Source: Massiliimicrobium timonense
Lineage (GTDB): Bacteria; Bacillota_I; Bacilli_A; Erysipelotrichales; Coprobacillaceae
Length of the DNA stretch: 46,871 bases
Reading direction: 5' to 3'
Assembly: GCF_002160865.1 (NCBI RefSeq)
Contig: NZ_NFLJ01000024.1
Coordinates: forward strand, 1 to 46,871
The translations under genes and the position numbers were made by a program. A model generated the notes under the pieces. It was not told where the DNA came from and made no database searches. It was given only the letters and a program-made list of their open reading frames with translations. Shown piece after piece: positions 211 to 44,726 of the stretch (position 1 is its first letter; every line of letters starts with the position of its first letter).

Positions 211-939
211 ATGGCATATGAAGTTATTCTTGATGATTTTCAAGGTCCATTAGATTTATTGTTGCATCTAATTAAAGAAAAAGAAATGGATTTAGAAACT
301 TTGGAGGTTTCAGTTATTACTGATCAATATCTTGCTTATATTGATCAAATGGATGCCAAGCAATTAGAAACAATGTCAGAATATTTAGTTATGGCAGCAC
401 AGCTAATTGAGATGAAAAGTAAAATGCTTTTACCAGCCCAAAAGATTGAATTAGAAGATGACTATCAGGAAGATCCAAGAGAACAATTAATCAAACGATT
501 AATTGAATATAAAAAATATAAAGATGTCTTAGATGAATTTAAAGAAAAATATGAACAAAGACAATATATTCATACCAAAGCACCTGCTTTTATGGATGAA
601 TATGTTATTGATACAACTGATATGATTCCAGATCATTTAGAAGTTTATGATTTAATAAGAGCAATGCAAAAAATGTTTCAAAGAAAAGCATTACATGCTC
701 CTTTAGAATCGAAAATTGCACGTGTTGAAATATCTATTGATGAACGCAGTGATCAAATTAGACAATATTTTCGTATACATAAAAATCAAAGAGTAAAATT
801 AGAAGATTTGTTTGAAGAACCTACAAAAATCTTCTTTGTGATTACGTTTTTATCCATTCTTGTTTTAGTCAATAAAAATGAACTGATTATTGAACAGGAA
901 GGTAACTTTGAAGATATATATTTAAAGGAGAGAACTTGA
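211..939 (+). CDS. scpA: Segregation and condensation protein A
   Basis: This is the kleisin subunit of the SMC-ScpA-ScpB condensin complex, which compacts and segregates the chromosome. The 242-residue length is normal for ScpA. The N-terminus has the family hallmark FQGPLDLLLHLI (residues 10-21), which binds the SMC neck and ScpB, followed by an acidic/basic helical middle and a C-terminal winged-helix segment (about 170-235) that binds the SMC head. ATG 211 follows the strong site GGAGGTG. It is translationally coupled to scpB: the TGA stop overlaps the next ATG. The smc gene is not in the window. Confidence 0.96.
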   Translation: MAYEVILDDFQGPLDLLLHLIKEKEMDLETLEVSVITDQYLAYIDQMDAKQLETMSEYLVMAAQLIEMKSKMLLPAQKIELEDDYQEDPREQLIKRLIEYKKYKDVLDEFKEKYEQRQYIHTKAPAFMDEYVIDTTDMIPDHLEVYDLIRAMQKMFQRKALHAPLESKIARVEISIDERSDQIRQYFRIHKNQRVKLEDLFEEPTKIFFVITFLSILVLVNKNELIIEQEGNFEDIYLKERT

Positions 940-8204: not shown

Positions 8205-9794
8205 ATGTCAGAATTGAAAGAAGAAGTACAAAAGCGTAGAACTTTTGCGATTATATCGCATCCAGATGCGGGAAAAACAACTTTAACAGAAAAATTCCTT
8301 CTTTATGGTGGTGCGATTCAAGAAGCCGGAATGGTCAAAGGGAAAAAACAATCTAAACATGCGGTGAGTGACTGGATGGAAATTGAAAAACAAAGAGGGA
8401 TTTCTGTTACATCCTCTGTTTTACAATTTAATTATGATGGGTTCTGTATTAATATCTTGGATACACCGGGACATCAGGATTTCTCTGAAGATACTTATCG
8501 TACGTTAATGGCAGCAGATAGTGCAGTCATGGTCATAGATGGTTCTAAAGGGGTCGAAGATCAGACACGTAAATTATTTAAGGTTTGTGCCATGCGACAT
8601 ATTCCTATTTTTACATTTATTAATAAAATGGATCGAGAAGCGAAAGACCCCTATGAGTTAATGGAAGAAATTGAAAGAGAATTAGGTGTGGAAACATGTG
8701 CCATTAACTGGCCAATTGGTTGTGGTAAGGAATTTAAAGGTGTCTATGAACGCCAAAACAATGAAGTCATTCGTTTTATTCCTGTACAAGGTGGTAAAAA
8801 AGAAGTTGATGTTGAAATATGTGATGTTCAAGATGAATCTTTAAAAGAACAGCTAGGAGAAACATTATATCAACAATTACAAGATGATATTGAATTGTTG
8901 GATGGTGCAGGTGCTCAATTTGATCTTGAACGTGTGCGACATGGTGAATTATCACCTGTATGTTTTGGTTCGGCCTTAACAAATTTTGGAGTAGAACCTT
9001 TCTTAAAACACTTTTTAGAAATGACAACATCACCATTACCTCGTATGAGTAATATTGGTGAAATTGATCCGTTTTCAGAAGATTTTAGTGCCTTTGTTTT
9101 TAAGATTCAAGCGAATATGAATAAGGCACATCGTGACCGTATGGCTTTTATGCGTATTTGTTCAGGAAAGTTTACAAAAGGTATGGAAGTTTTCCATTAT
9201 CAAGGGAATAAAAAAATCAAACTGAATCAATCTAAGCAATTAATGGCAGAAAACCGAGAAGAAGTAGAAGAAGCTTATTCGGGTGATATTATTGGTGTTT
9301 TTGATCCGGGTATCTTTTCAATTGGTGATACTTTATGTCCAGCAAAAAATAAATTTGCCTATGAAGGTATACCGACATTTGCCCCAGAACATTTTTCAAT
9401 GATTCGTAATAAAGATACGATGAAACGTAAACAGTTTGTTAAGGGTGTTGAACAGATTGCTCAAGAAGGAGCCATTCAGATTTTTACTGAACTAGGTGGC
9501 GGTATGGAAGAAATCATTGTAGGCGTTGTTGGTGTTTTACAATTTGAAGTTTTATCATATCGTTTAAAGAATGAATATAATGTGGATATTATTAGTACAC
9601 CACTGCCTTATCAATATATTCGCTGGATTAAAAATAAAGATGTTGATTTTAAAAAGTTAAATCTTTCTTCAGATACAAAAAAAGTACAAGATTTAAAAGG
9701 ACAATATCTTTTATTGTTTTCTAATGAATGGGGTGTTCGTTGGGCAACTGATAAAAATCCTGATCTTGTTTTAGCTGAATTTTCACAGAATTAA
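8205..9794 (+). CDS. prfC: Peptide chain release factor 3
   Basis: RF3 is the translational GTPase that recycles RF1/RF2 from the ribosome after termination. At 529 residues it is full length. GTPase motifs: G1 SHPDAGKTT (about 19-27), G2 GISVTSS, G3 DTPGHQDF, G4 NKMD. These are followed by the RF3-specific second domain and the C-terminal domain. A longer reading from GTG 8190 is unlikely because the site GTGAGGAGG would then be coding; ATG 8205 sits 7 nt after it. The gene is monocistronic between its own promoter and a strong terminator. Confidence 0.96.
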   Translation: MSELKEEVQKRRTFAIISHPDAGKTTLTEKFLLYGGAIQEAGMVKGKKQSKHAVSDWMEIEKQRGISVTSSVLQFNYDGFCINILDTPGHQDFSEDTYRTLMAADSAVMVIDGSKGVEDQTRKLFKVCAMRHIPIFTFINKMDREAKDPYELMEEIERELGVETCAINWPIGCGKEFKGVYERQNNEVIRFIPVQGGKKEVDVEICDVQDESLKEQLGETLYQQLQDDIELLDGAGAQFDLERVRHGELSPVCFGSALTNFGVEPFLKHFLEMTTSPLPRMSNIGEIDPFSEDFSAFVFKIQANMNKAHRDRMAFMRICSGKFTKGMEVFHYQGNKKIKLNQSKQLMAENREEVEEAYSGDIIGVFDPGIFSIGDTLCPAKNKFAYEGIPTFAPEHFSMIRNKDTMKRKQFVKGVEQIAQEGAIQIFTELGGGMEEIIVGVVGVLQFEVLSYRLKNEYNVDIISTPLPYQYIRWIKNKDVDFKKLNLSSDTKKVQDLKGQYLLLFSNEWGVRWATDKNPDLVLAEFSQN

Positions 9795-9820
9795 TGATAC
9801 TCCTCGAGTATCATTTTTCT
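9793..9820 (+). terminator. Terminator of prfC
   Basis: A 10-bp stem, AATGATACTC / GAGTATCATT, with a 3-nt loop, followed by TTTCTTTTTT. It begins in the prfC stop codon. Confidence 0.88.
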
Positions 9821-9848: not shown

Positions 9849-9869
9849 ACATTTAAGGAGGTGTCACCT

Positions 9870-10112
9870 GTGGCTAATGAAGGAAAGCGTTGTTATTGTC
9901 GATGTATTCAAGATATGCGTATGCAAATAGGCAAAGAAGAATTGACGATTTTTCATCACAACCAGATTTATGCATGTATGGTTCGTACAGGTGACAAGGA
10001 GGTTTCTTTTTATAAGATTTATGGGGAAGAATTTTCTTTAAGTTGCAGTGAAACAGAATTTAAGGAATATTTTCGTTTTGTCAAATATAAATCATCTGAT
10101 GAGAAATTGTGA
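9870..10112 (+). CDS. Small Cys-containing conserved-type hypothetical protein
   Basis: I do not recognise this family. The protein has 80 residues and starts at GTG 9870 (MANEGKRCYCRC), 8 nt after AAGGAGG; an upstream in-frame GTG at 9861 lies inside the ribosome site and is rejected. The N-terminus carries a C-x-C-x-C cluster (residues 8, 10, 12), which could bind metal, with two more cysteines near 36 and 57. The rest looks like a small alpha/beta fold with no signal peptide or membrane segment. It ends about 50 nt before the degenerate P-type ATPase gene, which has its own possible promoter. A functional link is speculative. Confidence 0.72.
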   Translation: MANEGKRCYCRCIQDMRMQIGKEELTIFHHNQIYACMVRTGDKEVSFYKIYGEEFSLSCSETEFKEYFRFVKYKSSDEKL

Positions 10113-10147: not shown

Positions 10148-10162
10148 GTCGTAGAAAGGGTG

Positions 10163-12112
10163 ATGACTTTGTCAAAAAAGACTTTTGAAATTTCAAATAT
10201 TCAATCCGTTGAAGAATTAAATCATTTAAGTTTAAAACTCAATGAAAAAGAACAAGTTTCGCATATTAAAGTCAATAAAGATAGTATTGTTTTTCATTGT
10301 CTTGATATTGATGCTTTATTAAGTTTAATCCAGAGTGTGAATAAAGACTTTGTTGTAAAAGAAGTGATTGATGGGAAAAAACGTGAATATGATTTTGCCA
10401 AAAAGAAAGAACGTCAATATTATTTCATGTTTAAAAATATGTTAACAGAAGATGATATTTATGTGCTGGTTGAAAGAATTGAAAAAGATCGTAGATATCA
10501 TGATGTGCATTATGATGGACAAAATAAACTTTTATTATTGAAATCTAGTCAAAGAGATGTTTTAAGTCTGTTAAGAAAAGAATTATTTAAGATTAATCCA
10601 TCGGTGGAGATTATTGAACATCACCGACCTATCCGTTCACAGGATGTTTTCAATCAAAAATTTCTTCAGATGTATATACGTATTGGTATTTTGCTCGTTG
10701 TTGTTGCTTTAGCATTAGTTACATCTAAAGATGATACAATTATGACACCTATTTTATGGTTAATCACAGTCATTTTATTAGGTATGCCTTTACTCAAAAA
10801 AGGATGGGGAGATCTTTTATCTAAGAAGTTTTTCAGTGAATCATTACTTGTTTTTATCGCTATGATTTTTGGTGTTATTTCTGGGGCATATATTGAAACA
10901 TGTGTGGCTTTAATTGTCTATGAATTATCGACGCCATTTTTAAACAAAGTTCTGGAACGTTCATTGCATAAGATTGATAATGCTGTAGAAATGCCGGAAA
11001 CTGGGATGCGTTATCAAGATGGACAAACAGAAAAGGTTTCATTATATGATGTTGAAATTGGTGATATTTTAATTGTAAAACCGGGTGAAACAGTGTCTAT
11101 TCCCGGAACGATTGATAAAGGTGTTTCAGCCATCAGTACTTATTCAAATACAAGTACATATGAACCGGTTGTAGTAAAAAAAGGCAGTCATGTCAGCAGT
11201 GGTGATGTCAATGTGGGTGAAAGTGAGCTTTATGTACAGGTTGATGAAACTTATGAAAGTTCTAATTATATGAATTTAATGAATATTGCCAGTGTAGCTC
11301 CTGTCTATGAATCAAAAACTGAAAAATATACAAAACGACTGGCAAAATTCTATACTCCAGTTATGGTTGCTTTGGGATTGTTGTTAGGTATTGTTTTACC
11401 ACTCATTCAATTTGAAGAATATGGTTCTTATATTCATGTTGGAGCTGTTTTCCTTGTGATATCGGGAGCTTTATCAAGTGATCAGGCAACATCTTTAGGA
11501 ATGCTGGCAGGTTTTGCAAAAGCTTTTCAACATGGTATTATTGTTGAATCATCAATGGGGTTAGATTCTATTAATGCAGCACAGACGATTGTTTATGATC
11601 GTTTTGATGGTGTGGAAGTCACAAATGAGGAATTAAATCTTTTTAAGAAGCTTTCACATATGGGAAGAACACTTGTCATTTATAATGATGGACCTGTGGC
11701 ATTGGAAGATGATCAGTATAAAATTTATAATGATTTAACAAATGCTCAAAAATTAGAAAAAATGGAATCTATGACAGCACCTGTTGTTTATATTGGAGAT
11801 ACTTTTAAAGATATTGAGCTTTTACAGAAAAGTTATGTTGGTATTTCTCGTGGAGGATTAGCTGATCCTAAAGTTGTTGAAAATAGTGATATTGTATTGA
11901 TCGATGCTGATTTAAATAGGGTTTATGAAACATTTGTAATCGCAAGAAAGATGCGTACTATTGCGGTTGCAAATAATATTTTGACAGTTGTGGTGAAAGT
12001 CGCAATGCTTATTACAGCCTTAAGCTGGACGGTTGTCCCTTTATGGGCTATTGTATTGATTGAGATTTTATTAAAAGCTTTTGTTATGCGTAATTCAACA
12101 TGTATTTTATAG
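10163..12112 (+). CDS. Degenerate P1B-type ATPase-like membrane protein, predicted catalytically inactive
   Basis: 649 residues with the layout of a heavy-metal P-type ATPase but without its chemistry. Two HMA-like folds (about 5-70 and 85-155) both lack CxxC. Membrane helices and an actuator-like domain follow. TGES is replaced by TYEP (332-335), the transmembrane CPC by GAL (435-437) and DKTGT by DRFDG (479-483). GDGxND reads GDTFKD (545-550). Only about 66 residues separate the Asp from GD, against 196 in the window's CopA, so the ATP-binding N domain is missing. Spacing elsewhere matches CopA exactly (44 residues from CPC position to Asp). The frame is intact over the whole length, with its own promoter and terminator, so it is probably functional in another role. 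ATG 10163 is used; TTG 10169 fits the ribosome site better. Confidence 0.85.
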   Translation: MTLSKKTFEISNIQSVEELNHLSLKLNEKEQVSHIKVNKDSIVFHCLDIDALLSLIQSVNKDFVVKEVIDGKKREYDFAKKKERQYYFMFKNMLTEDDIYVLVERIEKDRRYHDVHYDGQNKLLLLKSSQRDVLSLLRKELFKINPSVEIIEHHRPIRSQDVFNQKFLQMYIRIGILLVVVALALVTSKDDTIMTPILWLITVILLGMPLLKKGWGDLLSKKFFSESLLVFIAMIFGVISGAYIETCVALIVYELSTPFLNKVLERSLHKIDNAVEMPETGMRYQDGQTEKVSLYDVEIGDILIVKPGETVSIPGTIDKGVSAISTYSNTSTYEPVVVKKGSHVSSGDVNVGESELYVQVDETYESSNYMNLMNIASVAPVYESKTEKYTKRLAKFYTPVMVALGLLLGIVLPLIQFEEYGSYIHVGAVFLVISGALSSDQATSLGMLAGFAKAFQHGIIVESSMGLDSINAAQTIVYDRFDGVEVTNEELNLFKKLSHMGRTLVIYNDGPVALEDDQYKIYNDLTNAQKLEKMESMTAPVVYIGDTFKDIELLQKSYVGISRGGLADPKVVENSDIVLIDADLNRVYETFVIARKMRTIAVANNILTVVVKVAMLITALSWTVVPLWAIVLIEILLKAFVMRNSTCIL

Positions 12113-12137
12113 AGTAGACATGTCTACTCTTTTTTTG
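12111..12137 (+). terminator. Terminator after the P-type ATPase-like gene
   Basis: A perfect 20-nt palindrome, AGAGTAGACATGTCTACTCT (12111-12130), is followed by six T. The ribosome site of the next gene begins immediately after. Confidence 0.85.
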
Positions 12138-14145: not shown

Positions 14146-14275
14146 GTAAATGAAAAGTAGTGGAAAGAAGAAGTGCCTACTTCTCGCCTGAGTGTTGATG
14201 ACGCTAGGCTTATGTCACTAAGATGAATATCTTAATGTCAATTTGTGGGTACTTTATGTGCTCACTTTTTATTTC
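14146..14275 (+). ncRNA. Structured leader of infC-rpmI-rplT (L20-type autoregulatory leader) with attenuator
   Basis: Between promoter and infC lies a folded leader. AAGTAG (14155-14160) can pair with CTACTT (14178-14183), a central GCCTGAG..CTAGGC segment can form a second helix, and the leader ends in a terminator-like hairpin: GTGGGTAC (14245-14252) with GTGCTCAC (14258-14265), then TTTTTATTT. In Bacillus, ribosomal protein L20 binds the infC leader and causes premature termination. The same position and layout support that mechanism here; L20 binding itself is inference. Confidence 0.7.
14245..14274 (+). terminator. Attenuator hairpin in the infC leader
   Basis: An 8-bp stem with two G-U pairs and a 5-nt loop, followed by TTTTTATTT, 30 nt before the infC start. 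Confidence 0.75.
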
Positions 14276-14303
14276 AACTACACATATATAGGAGGTGGCT
14301 ATT

Positions 14304-42242: not shown

Positions 42243-44726
42243 ATGAAACAGAAATATGATGTGATGGGGATGACATGCAGTGCATGTAGTGCTCATGTTG
42301 ATAAAGCAGTGAGGCATCTGGATGGTGTTCAAGATGTCAATGTCAATCTTTTAAGTAATTGTATGGTCGTTGATTATGATGAAAATAAAGTCAATGATGC
42401 TATGATTAAAAAAGCTGTTGAAGATGCAGGATATAAAGCAGCTTTGGAAACACAAAGTGTTCAAGCACAAAAACAAGAAGAAACAGTTGATGATAAGAAA
42501 AAATCTTTGATTCTTTCTTTTGCCTTTTTGATTCCTTTGTTTTATATTTCAATGGGACATATGATGGGAGCACCACTACCATCTTTCCTTGTTGGTGAAA
42601 GCAATATGATGGTTTTTGCTTTAACACAGCTCTTTTTAACTTTGCCAGTTATGTATATCAATCGTGGTTATTTTCAAAGAGGTTTCAAATCATTATGGCA
42701 TCGTAGTCCTAATATGGATACATTGATTGCGATGGGATCTTTAGCAGCAGCGATTTATAGTATTTATGCTATTTTCATGATGGGTTATGATTTGGGGCAT
42801 GGACAGATTCATCAAGCTCATCAATATATGATGCAGCTTTATTTTGAATCAGCTGCAATGATTTTAACACTCATTTCATTAGGAAAGTATTTAGAATCAC
42901 GCTCTAAAAAGAAAACAACTGAGGCCATTGAAAAGTTGATTCATCTGATGCCATCTGTGGCGACAATCTTAAAAGATGGTCAAGAAAAAGAAGTCGCTAT
43001 TGAAGATGTTCAAGTAGGAGATATTGTTGTTGTTAAATCAGGGCAAAGCATTCCTTTGGATGGAGTCATTATTGATGGGCAGACTTCTATTGATGAGTCT
43101 ATGATTACAGGAGAAAGCTTGCCTGTTGATAAAACTGTCAATGATCGTGTGATTGGTGCGACAATGAATGTTGAAGGTTATATTCAAGTTCAAGTGACAC
43201 ATACAAGTCAAGAAGCCACTTTATCACAGATTATTGAACTGGTTGAGGAAGCAAGTTCTTCTAAAGCTCCGATTGCTAAACTGGCAGATCGTATCAGTGG
43301 TATTTTTGTTCCTATTGTCATTGTGATTTCATTGGTTACTTTTATCTTATGGATGACACTGGGACAGCAGACATTCCATTTTGCTTTGACATGTGCCATT
43401 GCAGTCTTGGTCATTTCATGCCCATGTGCCTTAGGATTAGCGACGCCAACGGCTATTATGGTAGGGACAGGAAAAGGTGCACAGCTAGGTATTCTAATCA
43501 AATCGGCAGAAAATCTGGAATTATTATCTAAAGCACAGAGCATCATTTTAGATAAAACGGGAACTATCACTCAAGGGAAACCACAAGTCACACAAATCGA
43601 AGCATTGCATATGAGTGAAGATGAACTGTTGACACTGGCGGCTTCTATTGAAAATTCATCACAACATCCTTTAGCCAAAGCAATTGTTGCCTATGCAAAA
43701 GAAAAGAAGATTTCTTTGCAGAAAGTGGAACAGTTTGAAATGTTATCGGGTAAAGGTCTTAAAGGATGGATTCATGGAAAAATGATTTTATCGGGGAATC
43801 AGCGTTTAATGAAAGAACATGATATTGATTTGTCACCCGTTGAAGCATTGGCACAGCAGTTATCAAATCATGGAAAGACACCACTTTATTATGCTTATGA
43901 TGGTCAAATCATTGGCTTGATTGTTGTTAGTGATGTTTTAAAACAAACAAGTGCAAAAGCTATTGAACAGCTTAAGGCAATGGGATTATCCGTTTATATG
44001 TTGACAGGTGATAATCGTTTGACAGCCAATGCTATTGGAAAAGAACTGGGAATTCAAGTGATTGCTGAAGTATTGCCACAGGATAAAGAAAAGCATATTC
44101 GTGATTTACAGGCACAGAATCAACGTGTGATCATGGTTGGAGATGGTATTAATGACGCTCCAGCATTGATGTGTGCTGATGTTGGTATTGCGATGACTTC
44201 AGGAACGGATATTGCGATGGATTCTGCTGATATTGTTTTAATGAAAAATGATTTATTAGATGTTGTCAATGCAATTGAATTGAGTCATGCTGTGTTAAAA
44301 AACATTAAAGAAAATCTATTCTGGGCTTTCTTCTATAATGTGATTGGCATTCCTATTGCAGCCGGATTGTTTTATCCATTCTTTGGCTGGTTATTAGATC
44401 CTATGTTTGGAGCAGCCGCTATGAGTTTAAGTTCAGTCTTTGTTGTCAGCAACGCCTTAAGACTAAGATTTTTTAAACCAAAATATCAAAATCAAATAAG
44501 AAAACAGGAGGTTAATCAAATGGAAAAGAAAATGAATATTGAAGGAATGATGTGTCCTCATTGTCAAAAACATGTATCACAGGCATTAAATAGTATTGAA
44601 GGTGTCAAAGCAACAGTTGATTTAGAAAATCATTGTGCTTATCTTCAATTAGATCATGACATAGAAGAAAGTCTATTAGTCAAAGCTGTTGAAGATGCAG
44701 GATATAGTGTAAAGGGTTTTGAATAA
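42243..44726 (+). CDS. copA: Copper-exporting P-type ATPase CopA with C-terminal CopZ-like domain
   Basis: An 827-residue Cu(I) efflux pump. The N-terminal HMA domain has MTCSAC (Cys12, Cys15). The catalytic core has TGES (289-292), CPC in the membrane (393-395), DKTGT with the phosphorylated Asp437, an HP motif (SSQHPLAK) and GDGIND (633-638). The usual C-terminus (NALRLRFF) is followed by a short linker and an extra HMA domain with MMCPHC (about 768-773), a CopZ-like copper chaperone fused in frame. A perfect ribosome site before the codon for Met760 suggests this domain is also made alone. The stop overlaps csoR (TAATG). Confidence 0.97.
44520..44726 (+). CDS. copZ: CopZ-like copper chaperone by internal initiation in copA
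   Basis: Within copA, in the same frame, AGGAGG (44506-44511) lies 8 nt before ATG 44520 (Met760 of CopA). Starting there gives a 68-residue protein, [20 protein letters not shown] and onward, with the full beta-alpha-beta-beta-alpha-beta HMA fold, the CxxC pair and the C-terminal AVEDAGY motif: exactly the size of CopZ. No stop codon separates it from the pump. Sequence supports dual output of fused and free chaperone; actual internal initiation is inference. Confidence 0.65.

Follow-up and report, generated by a model that had tools for sequence, protein, structure and literature searches.

A Zn/Cd-type P1B-ATPase descendant of Coprobacillaceae has lost its pump motifs and keeps the pocket of its P-like domain

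Introduction

P-type ATPases are usually studied as active pumps. The described proteins closest to the one examined here are the ZntA/CadA transporters of the P1B-2 (Zn/Cd-type) group, for which the structure of ZntA from Shigella sonnei is available (PDB 4umv). The roles of the ZntA membrane residues E202, K693 and D714, to which we refer below, are described in PMC8880997. A second point of comparison is provided by the capless (C0) HAD phosphatases of the KDO-8-phosphate phosphatase group; the HAD motifs are defined in PMC8069645, and there the N domain of P-type ATPases is their cap. A third is provided by pseudoenzymes in general, in which a fold is likewise kept under selection after its catalytic residues have been lost.

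Here we analyse a pseudo-pump gene in a stretch of 46,871 nucleotides from Massiliimicrobium timonense (contig NZ_NFLJ01000024.1; hereafter the window), whose sequence is Massilimicrobiota-like. With ZntA/CadA its product has in common ancestry, the eight-helix layout, the actuator (A) and P domains, HMA-like N-terminal domains and the M2 Glu, and, in the window's clade only, a likeness at the M5 Lys and the M6 acid; it differs from them in having no N domain, CPC, TGES Glu, DKTGT or CxxC. With the capless HAD phosphatases it shares an HAD core without an inserted cap, the motif III Lys and the motif IV Asp, and it differs in being membrane-bound within a P-type ATPase frame and in lacking the Asp at motif I +2 and the motif II Ser/Thr. 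We found no pseudo-P-type-ATPase family of the same build in Pfam, NCBIfam or the open-access literature.

Results

The gene lies in a locus of conserved order (prfC, a small open reading frame (ORF), the pseudo-pump, glxK/rluD and infC) and, as the preliminary description held, its frame is intact and free of stops. The features of the locus are given below.

9793–9815, + strand: terminator-like hairpin behind prfC that bounds the two-gene unit upstream
9870–10112, + strand: small ORF of about 80 residues with a CxC and two further Cys, placed by an alignment of 15 relatives and ribosome-binding-site spacing (mechanical listing 9861–10112)
10160–12112, + strand: pseudo-P1B-ATPase gene, open frame, likeliest start TTG 10169; orthologues in 32 of 43 Coprobacillaceae genomes, dN/dS 0.03–0.12 in most pairs
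10175–10387, + strand: first HMA-like domain, without CxxC (residues 6–69, from the secondary structure of the model)
10406–10630, + strand: second HMA-like domain, without CxxC (residues 84–153 in the model; residues 81–156 match domain 1 of CCS with Z 9.2, rmsd 1.9 and 69 aligned residues)
10967–11308, + strand: A domain with the catalytic Glu of TGES lost (Pfam PF00122; Z 13–14 to P1B A domains; alignments)
11309–11536, + strand: membrane helices 5 and 6, with GAL/GSF-like residues at the CPC position
11537–11908, + strand: P-like domain without N domain, carrying D479, N508, K530, D546 and D550 (44 of 124 positions near-invariant; fold match to the CopA P domain)
11909–12109, + strand: last two membrane helices, with K612 and E634 corresponding in position to ZntA K693 and D714
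12111–12130, + strand: terminator-like hairpin 3' of the pseudo-pump, downstream edge of the unit (−9.1 kcal/mol; counterparts in most orthologues)

The candidate starts GTG 10160 and ATG 10163 overlap or abut AGAAAGGG, and TTG 10169 has good spacing behind it; on the basis of this Shine-Dalgarno spacing and of the relatives, TTG 10169 is the more likely start. Both a terminator and a promoter of its own had been ascribed to the gene. The hairpin at its 3' end bears out the terminator; the promoter received no support from a consensus promoter scan, and the gene is preceded by a -10-like box, TATGTTATGATG, that is conserved in close relatives. Behind the terminator of prfC, a separate -10-like box precedes the small ORF. 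Terminator-like hairpins follow prfC and the pseudo-pump in most genomes and occur between the small ORF and the pseudo-pump only in genome G005; the two genes probably form one transcription unit. In some genomes an extra gene, often GNAT-like, lies between them.

Structure models and a Pfam match to the A domain agree with the P1B layout proposed at the outset. The model of the whole protein (pLDDT 61) contains two HMA-like domains, both with a predicted beta-alpha-beta-beta-alpha-beta order, the membrane helices (eight predicted), the A domain and the P-like domain; the modelled A domain resembles those of P1B pumps with Z 13–14 across about 105 residues. When the P-like domain was modelled alone (pLDDT 60), its best match was the P domain of CopA (2voy; Z 7.9, rmsd 2.9, 99 aligned residues), and the next matches included capless HAD phosphatases (Z about 6). 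The pLDDT of about 60 reflects shallow alignments, and a search of viral contigs for ZntA-like sequences to add to them found none; the models support domain identity only. The A domain was the one domain found by Pfam (E1-E2_ATPase, 1.1e-16, above the Pfam cut-off). The best NCBIfam models were those of heavy-metal and Cd-type P1B-ATPases, far under their cut-offs (139.8 versus 346.25 bits for TIGR01525, and 136.3 versus 313.5), and the best solved relative of the family profile was ZntA (6.7e-43). In a FastTree phylogeny the pseudo-pump family formed one clade that lay beside the Zn/Cd-type pumps and was separate from CopA and KdpB; the exact position of the family is uncertain because the branches are long. 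By its sequence, the pseudo-pump is a descendant of the P1B-2 ATPases. It retains the ancestry, A domain, eight helices and P domain of a P1B-ATPase and lacks the DKTGT, the N domain, the TGES Glu and the CPC.

These losses are shared. No member of the main pseudo-pump family has the CPC, the TGES Glu, either CxxC pair or the N domain; in the window's protein only three Cys remain (at 46, 247 and 647), and none forms a CxxC pair, as had been reported. At the CPC place the family carries GAL, GSF and similar residues. The distance from this position to the Asp is 44 residues both in the CopA of the window (393 to 437) and in the pseudo-pump (435 to 479), which confirms the identical spacing noted before. 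At the TGES place the 30 main members have TSTY (the window's clade) or mostly (N/D)G(S/N)(D/E) (the other main clade); TYEP, the earlier reading for the window, was off by two residues. The DKTGT place reads DRFDG, with the Asp retained and the remainder altered in all members, and neither DKTGT nor an N domain is retained by any full-length member. The ATP-binding domain is indeed missing, with a size closer to 122 residues than to the 130 first estimated: 151 residues separate the Asp from TGD in CopA, versus 29 between Asp479 and Asn508.

The preliminary description regarded all catalytic motifs as lacking and function as lost in every one of them. This stands for the pump motifs and fails for the HAD pocket. 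In the 30 main members, HAD motifs I, III and IV (PMC8069645) keep their charged residues near-invariant: D479 (the phosphorylation-site Asp), K530 (the motif III Lys) and both Asp of the GDxxxD pair, D546 and D550. The motif II place holds a near-invariant Asn508, the usual Ser/Thr being missing. The residue at motif I +2 is Phe in the 30 members, once Tyr and once Ile. At this position pumps have Thr, and HAD phosphatases have the Asp that serves as general acid-base. In an alternative register RFDG can be read as DxDG with Arg replacing the nucleophile; motif I is non-standard in either register. Across the 30 full members, near-invariant positions make up 35% of the P-like domain (44 of 124), 11% of the HMA-like domains, 7% of the A domain and 0–9% of the membrane parts; when sequences a short evolutionary distance apart are compared, the domains differ less in dN/dS. 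The retained HAD pocket is the most conserved part of the protein and therefore points to a P domain that has been repurposed, and not to an inert scaffold.

A full-length pseudo-pump is present in one copy per genome in the 32 Coprobacillaceae genomes, none with internal stops. In a search that covered 245 genomes from the order and 392 from the phylum, every protein outside Coprobacillaceae scored as an ordinary P1B-ATPase, with a gap between the lowest full-length member (496 bits) and the best outsider (199). Among the best-scoring outsiders, those fetched were true pumps with DKTGT, TGES, CPC and GDGxND, and we thus rejected the idea of intermediates outside the family. Beyond the phylum, the scan used six exact peptide patterns. 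Between close relatives dN/dS was 0.03–0.12 in most pairs, with a maximum of 0.21; synonymous distances near 1 are partly saturated, and the less saturated pairs give 0.03–0.05. Between genomes of the window's genus the pseudo-pump (0.083–0.116) resembled two working pumps, CopA (0.078–0.095) and a ZntA-like pump (0.073–0.096). Orthologues with the same losses and a dN/dS as low as that of working pumps support the earlier suggestion of selection for a new role. Two other readings were considered and set aside. Cargo of a mobile element was rejected: viral contigs yielded no relative, and plasmid and phage matches always covered less than 80% of the query at less than 60% identity, the annotated ones among those listed being ordinary heavy-metal P-type ATPases. 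A defence system was rejected as well, PADLOC giving no match.

Two divergent relatives extend the series of losses. Genome G007 has an open gene directly behind prfC and G005 has one behind the small ORF; the proteins have 593–594 residues with 21% and 17% identity, respectively, and a profile built without divergent members still matches them at 1.3e-52 (G007) and 4e-38 (G005). Their genes lie at L137:1933–3714 and L138:1508–3292, and the P domain of the L138 protein is mostly unrecognisable. Few or none of the HAD residues remain in either, while the protein stays open, so the pocket is dispensable in some members and the scaffold can outlast it. Loss across the orthologues is graded: the metal site, the N domain and the A-domain Glu have gone in all, and the HAD residues also in one clade. 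In a tree of neighbouring housekeeping proteins, G005 and G007 group with G017, with weak support within the group; no pseudo-pump was found in G017. Eight further genomes have neither the pseudo-pump nor the small ORF. All eight have prfC, and glxK and rluD still follow in the seven with a long enough contig; because the eight form one clade, they represent about one loss event of the gene pair. We note a membrane protein of about 210 residues right behind prfC in seven loci without the pair (L129 and L131–L136); L130, which belongs to that clade, lacks this protein.

The small ORF has four Cys, the CxC and two others, that are invariant in 15 relatives. Searches of Pfam, PADLOC and the PDB gave no convincing match for it. 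Within the order sample, the small ORF occurs in 34 genomes, all Coprobacillaceae (the 32 with a full-length pseudo-pump, G005 and G017; in G020 only a fragment is seen, at a contig end), and it is absent from all Erysipelotrichaceae sampled. The pairing has exceptions in both directions: of the two genes, G017 has only the small ORF, and G007 only a pseudo-pump relative. The co-occurrence gives an uncorrected Fisher P of 5e-7, which is overstated since it reflects about one loss event; adjacency is the other ground for the pairing. In G017 (L148) the small Cys4 ORF lies away from prfC, at about 9020–9250 on the minus strand, the clearest case in which the two genes are parted. The start site of the small ORF (L108–L114 and L116) is GTG or ATG in the window's clade versus ATT or ATC in the other main clade. 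The ATT/ATC site may be a rare non-AUG start, or translation may begin at an upstream GTG overlapping the Shine-Dalgarno sequence; a rare non-AUG start is known for infC. The small Cys4 protein is perhaps the best candidate for a partner of the pseudo-pump.

Discussion

We favour, with about even confidence, the explanation that the pseudo-pump is a repurposed P1B-2 ATPase acting as a transport-dead, nucleotide-independent membrane sensor or regulator, maybe with the small Cys4 protein as its partner. As part of this explanation we infer that it was fixed early in the Coprobacillaceae and has been conserved since. An ATP-driven transport cycle is not expected, because the N domain and the TGES Glu are missing. 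Anchored in the membrane, the A and P domains would instead make up a nucleotide-independent switch: the P pocket would bind a small anionic ligand or Mg2+, or would slowly take up phosphate from a small phosphodonor, and the HMA-like domains, which lack CxxC, would relay the state of the switch to a partner. The small Cys4 protein, probably co-transcribed, is a candidate for that partner and may sense metal or redox state. Our more specific proposal is tentative, and we hold it with clearly less confidence: a P-type ATPase scaffold has been turned into a nucleotide-free membrane receptor or an HAD enzyme, whose pocket would read a small ligand or Mg2+ and which would signal through the A domain, the HMA-like domains and the Cys4 partner.

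According to the strongest rival, the P domain has stayed an enzyme and is a membrane-tethered capless (C0-like) HAD phosphohydrolase with a small phosphorylated or acyl-phosphate substrate. The near-invariance of D479, K530, D546 and D550 speaks for it, as do the capless HAD phosphatases, which are among the fold matches that follow CopA; the replacement of the +2 acid-base Asp by Phe (once Tyr, once Ile), the Asn in place of the motif II Ser/Thr and the loss of the pocket in the divergent clade count against it, and we consider it unlikely. Somewhat less likely again is that the pseudo-pump controls a true ZntA-like or CopA metal pump through mixed oligomers, as a dominant or stabilising pseudo-subunit. 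Its ancestry is common with that of the ZntA-like pump, and the same genomes hold true pumps; however, true pumps are also present in genomes without the pseudo-pump, and no pump gene adjoins it in the loci examined.

It seems improbable that the protein lets a metal ion pass as a passive channel, one of the roles first suggested, or as a facilitated carrier. The protein has eight predicted membrane helices, and E245, K612 and E634 are kept in the window's clade at the positions of ZntA E202, K693 and D714 (the M2 Glu, M5 Lys and M6 acid). However, the membrane parts are the least conserved of the protein, and the other main clade has different residues at the places of K612 and E634; with this Lys/acid pair replaced, selection does not hold the transport residues across the family, an argument against a pump as well as a channel. 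A decaying pseudogene can be dismissed: many pump motifs are lost and the sister clade has lost more, but the frame is open in every genome that has the gene, its place and signals are conserved, and dN/dS, far from 1, is like that of working pumps across a wide spread of stop-free orthologues.

The Coprobacillaceae keep a P-type ATPase without the parts that use ATP, which evolves as slowly as working pumps and in which selection acts on the old phosphorylation pocket. If it is a receptor or an HAD enzyme, it would be a signalling protein derived from a P-type ATPase, and we found no description of this kind of protein. Roles of P-type ATPases beyond pumping can be tested directly in gut bacteria that include isolates, and the automatic label 'heavy metal translocating P-type ATPase' would mislead for this protein.

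Two observations concern other parts of the window. Riboswitch control was rejected, because the sole match in a riboswitch search (Rfam) was a ribosomal protein L20 leader downstream of the pseudo-pump and upstream of infC (14159–14279), just below the gathering score (58.4 versus 58.7 bits). The true CopA (42243–44726) has an HMA domain at each end, the C-terminal one with CPHC, and from this arrangement it looks like a fusion with a CopZ-like chaperone.
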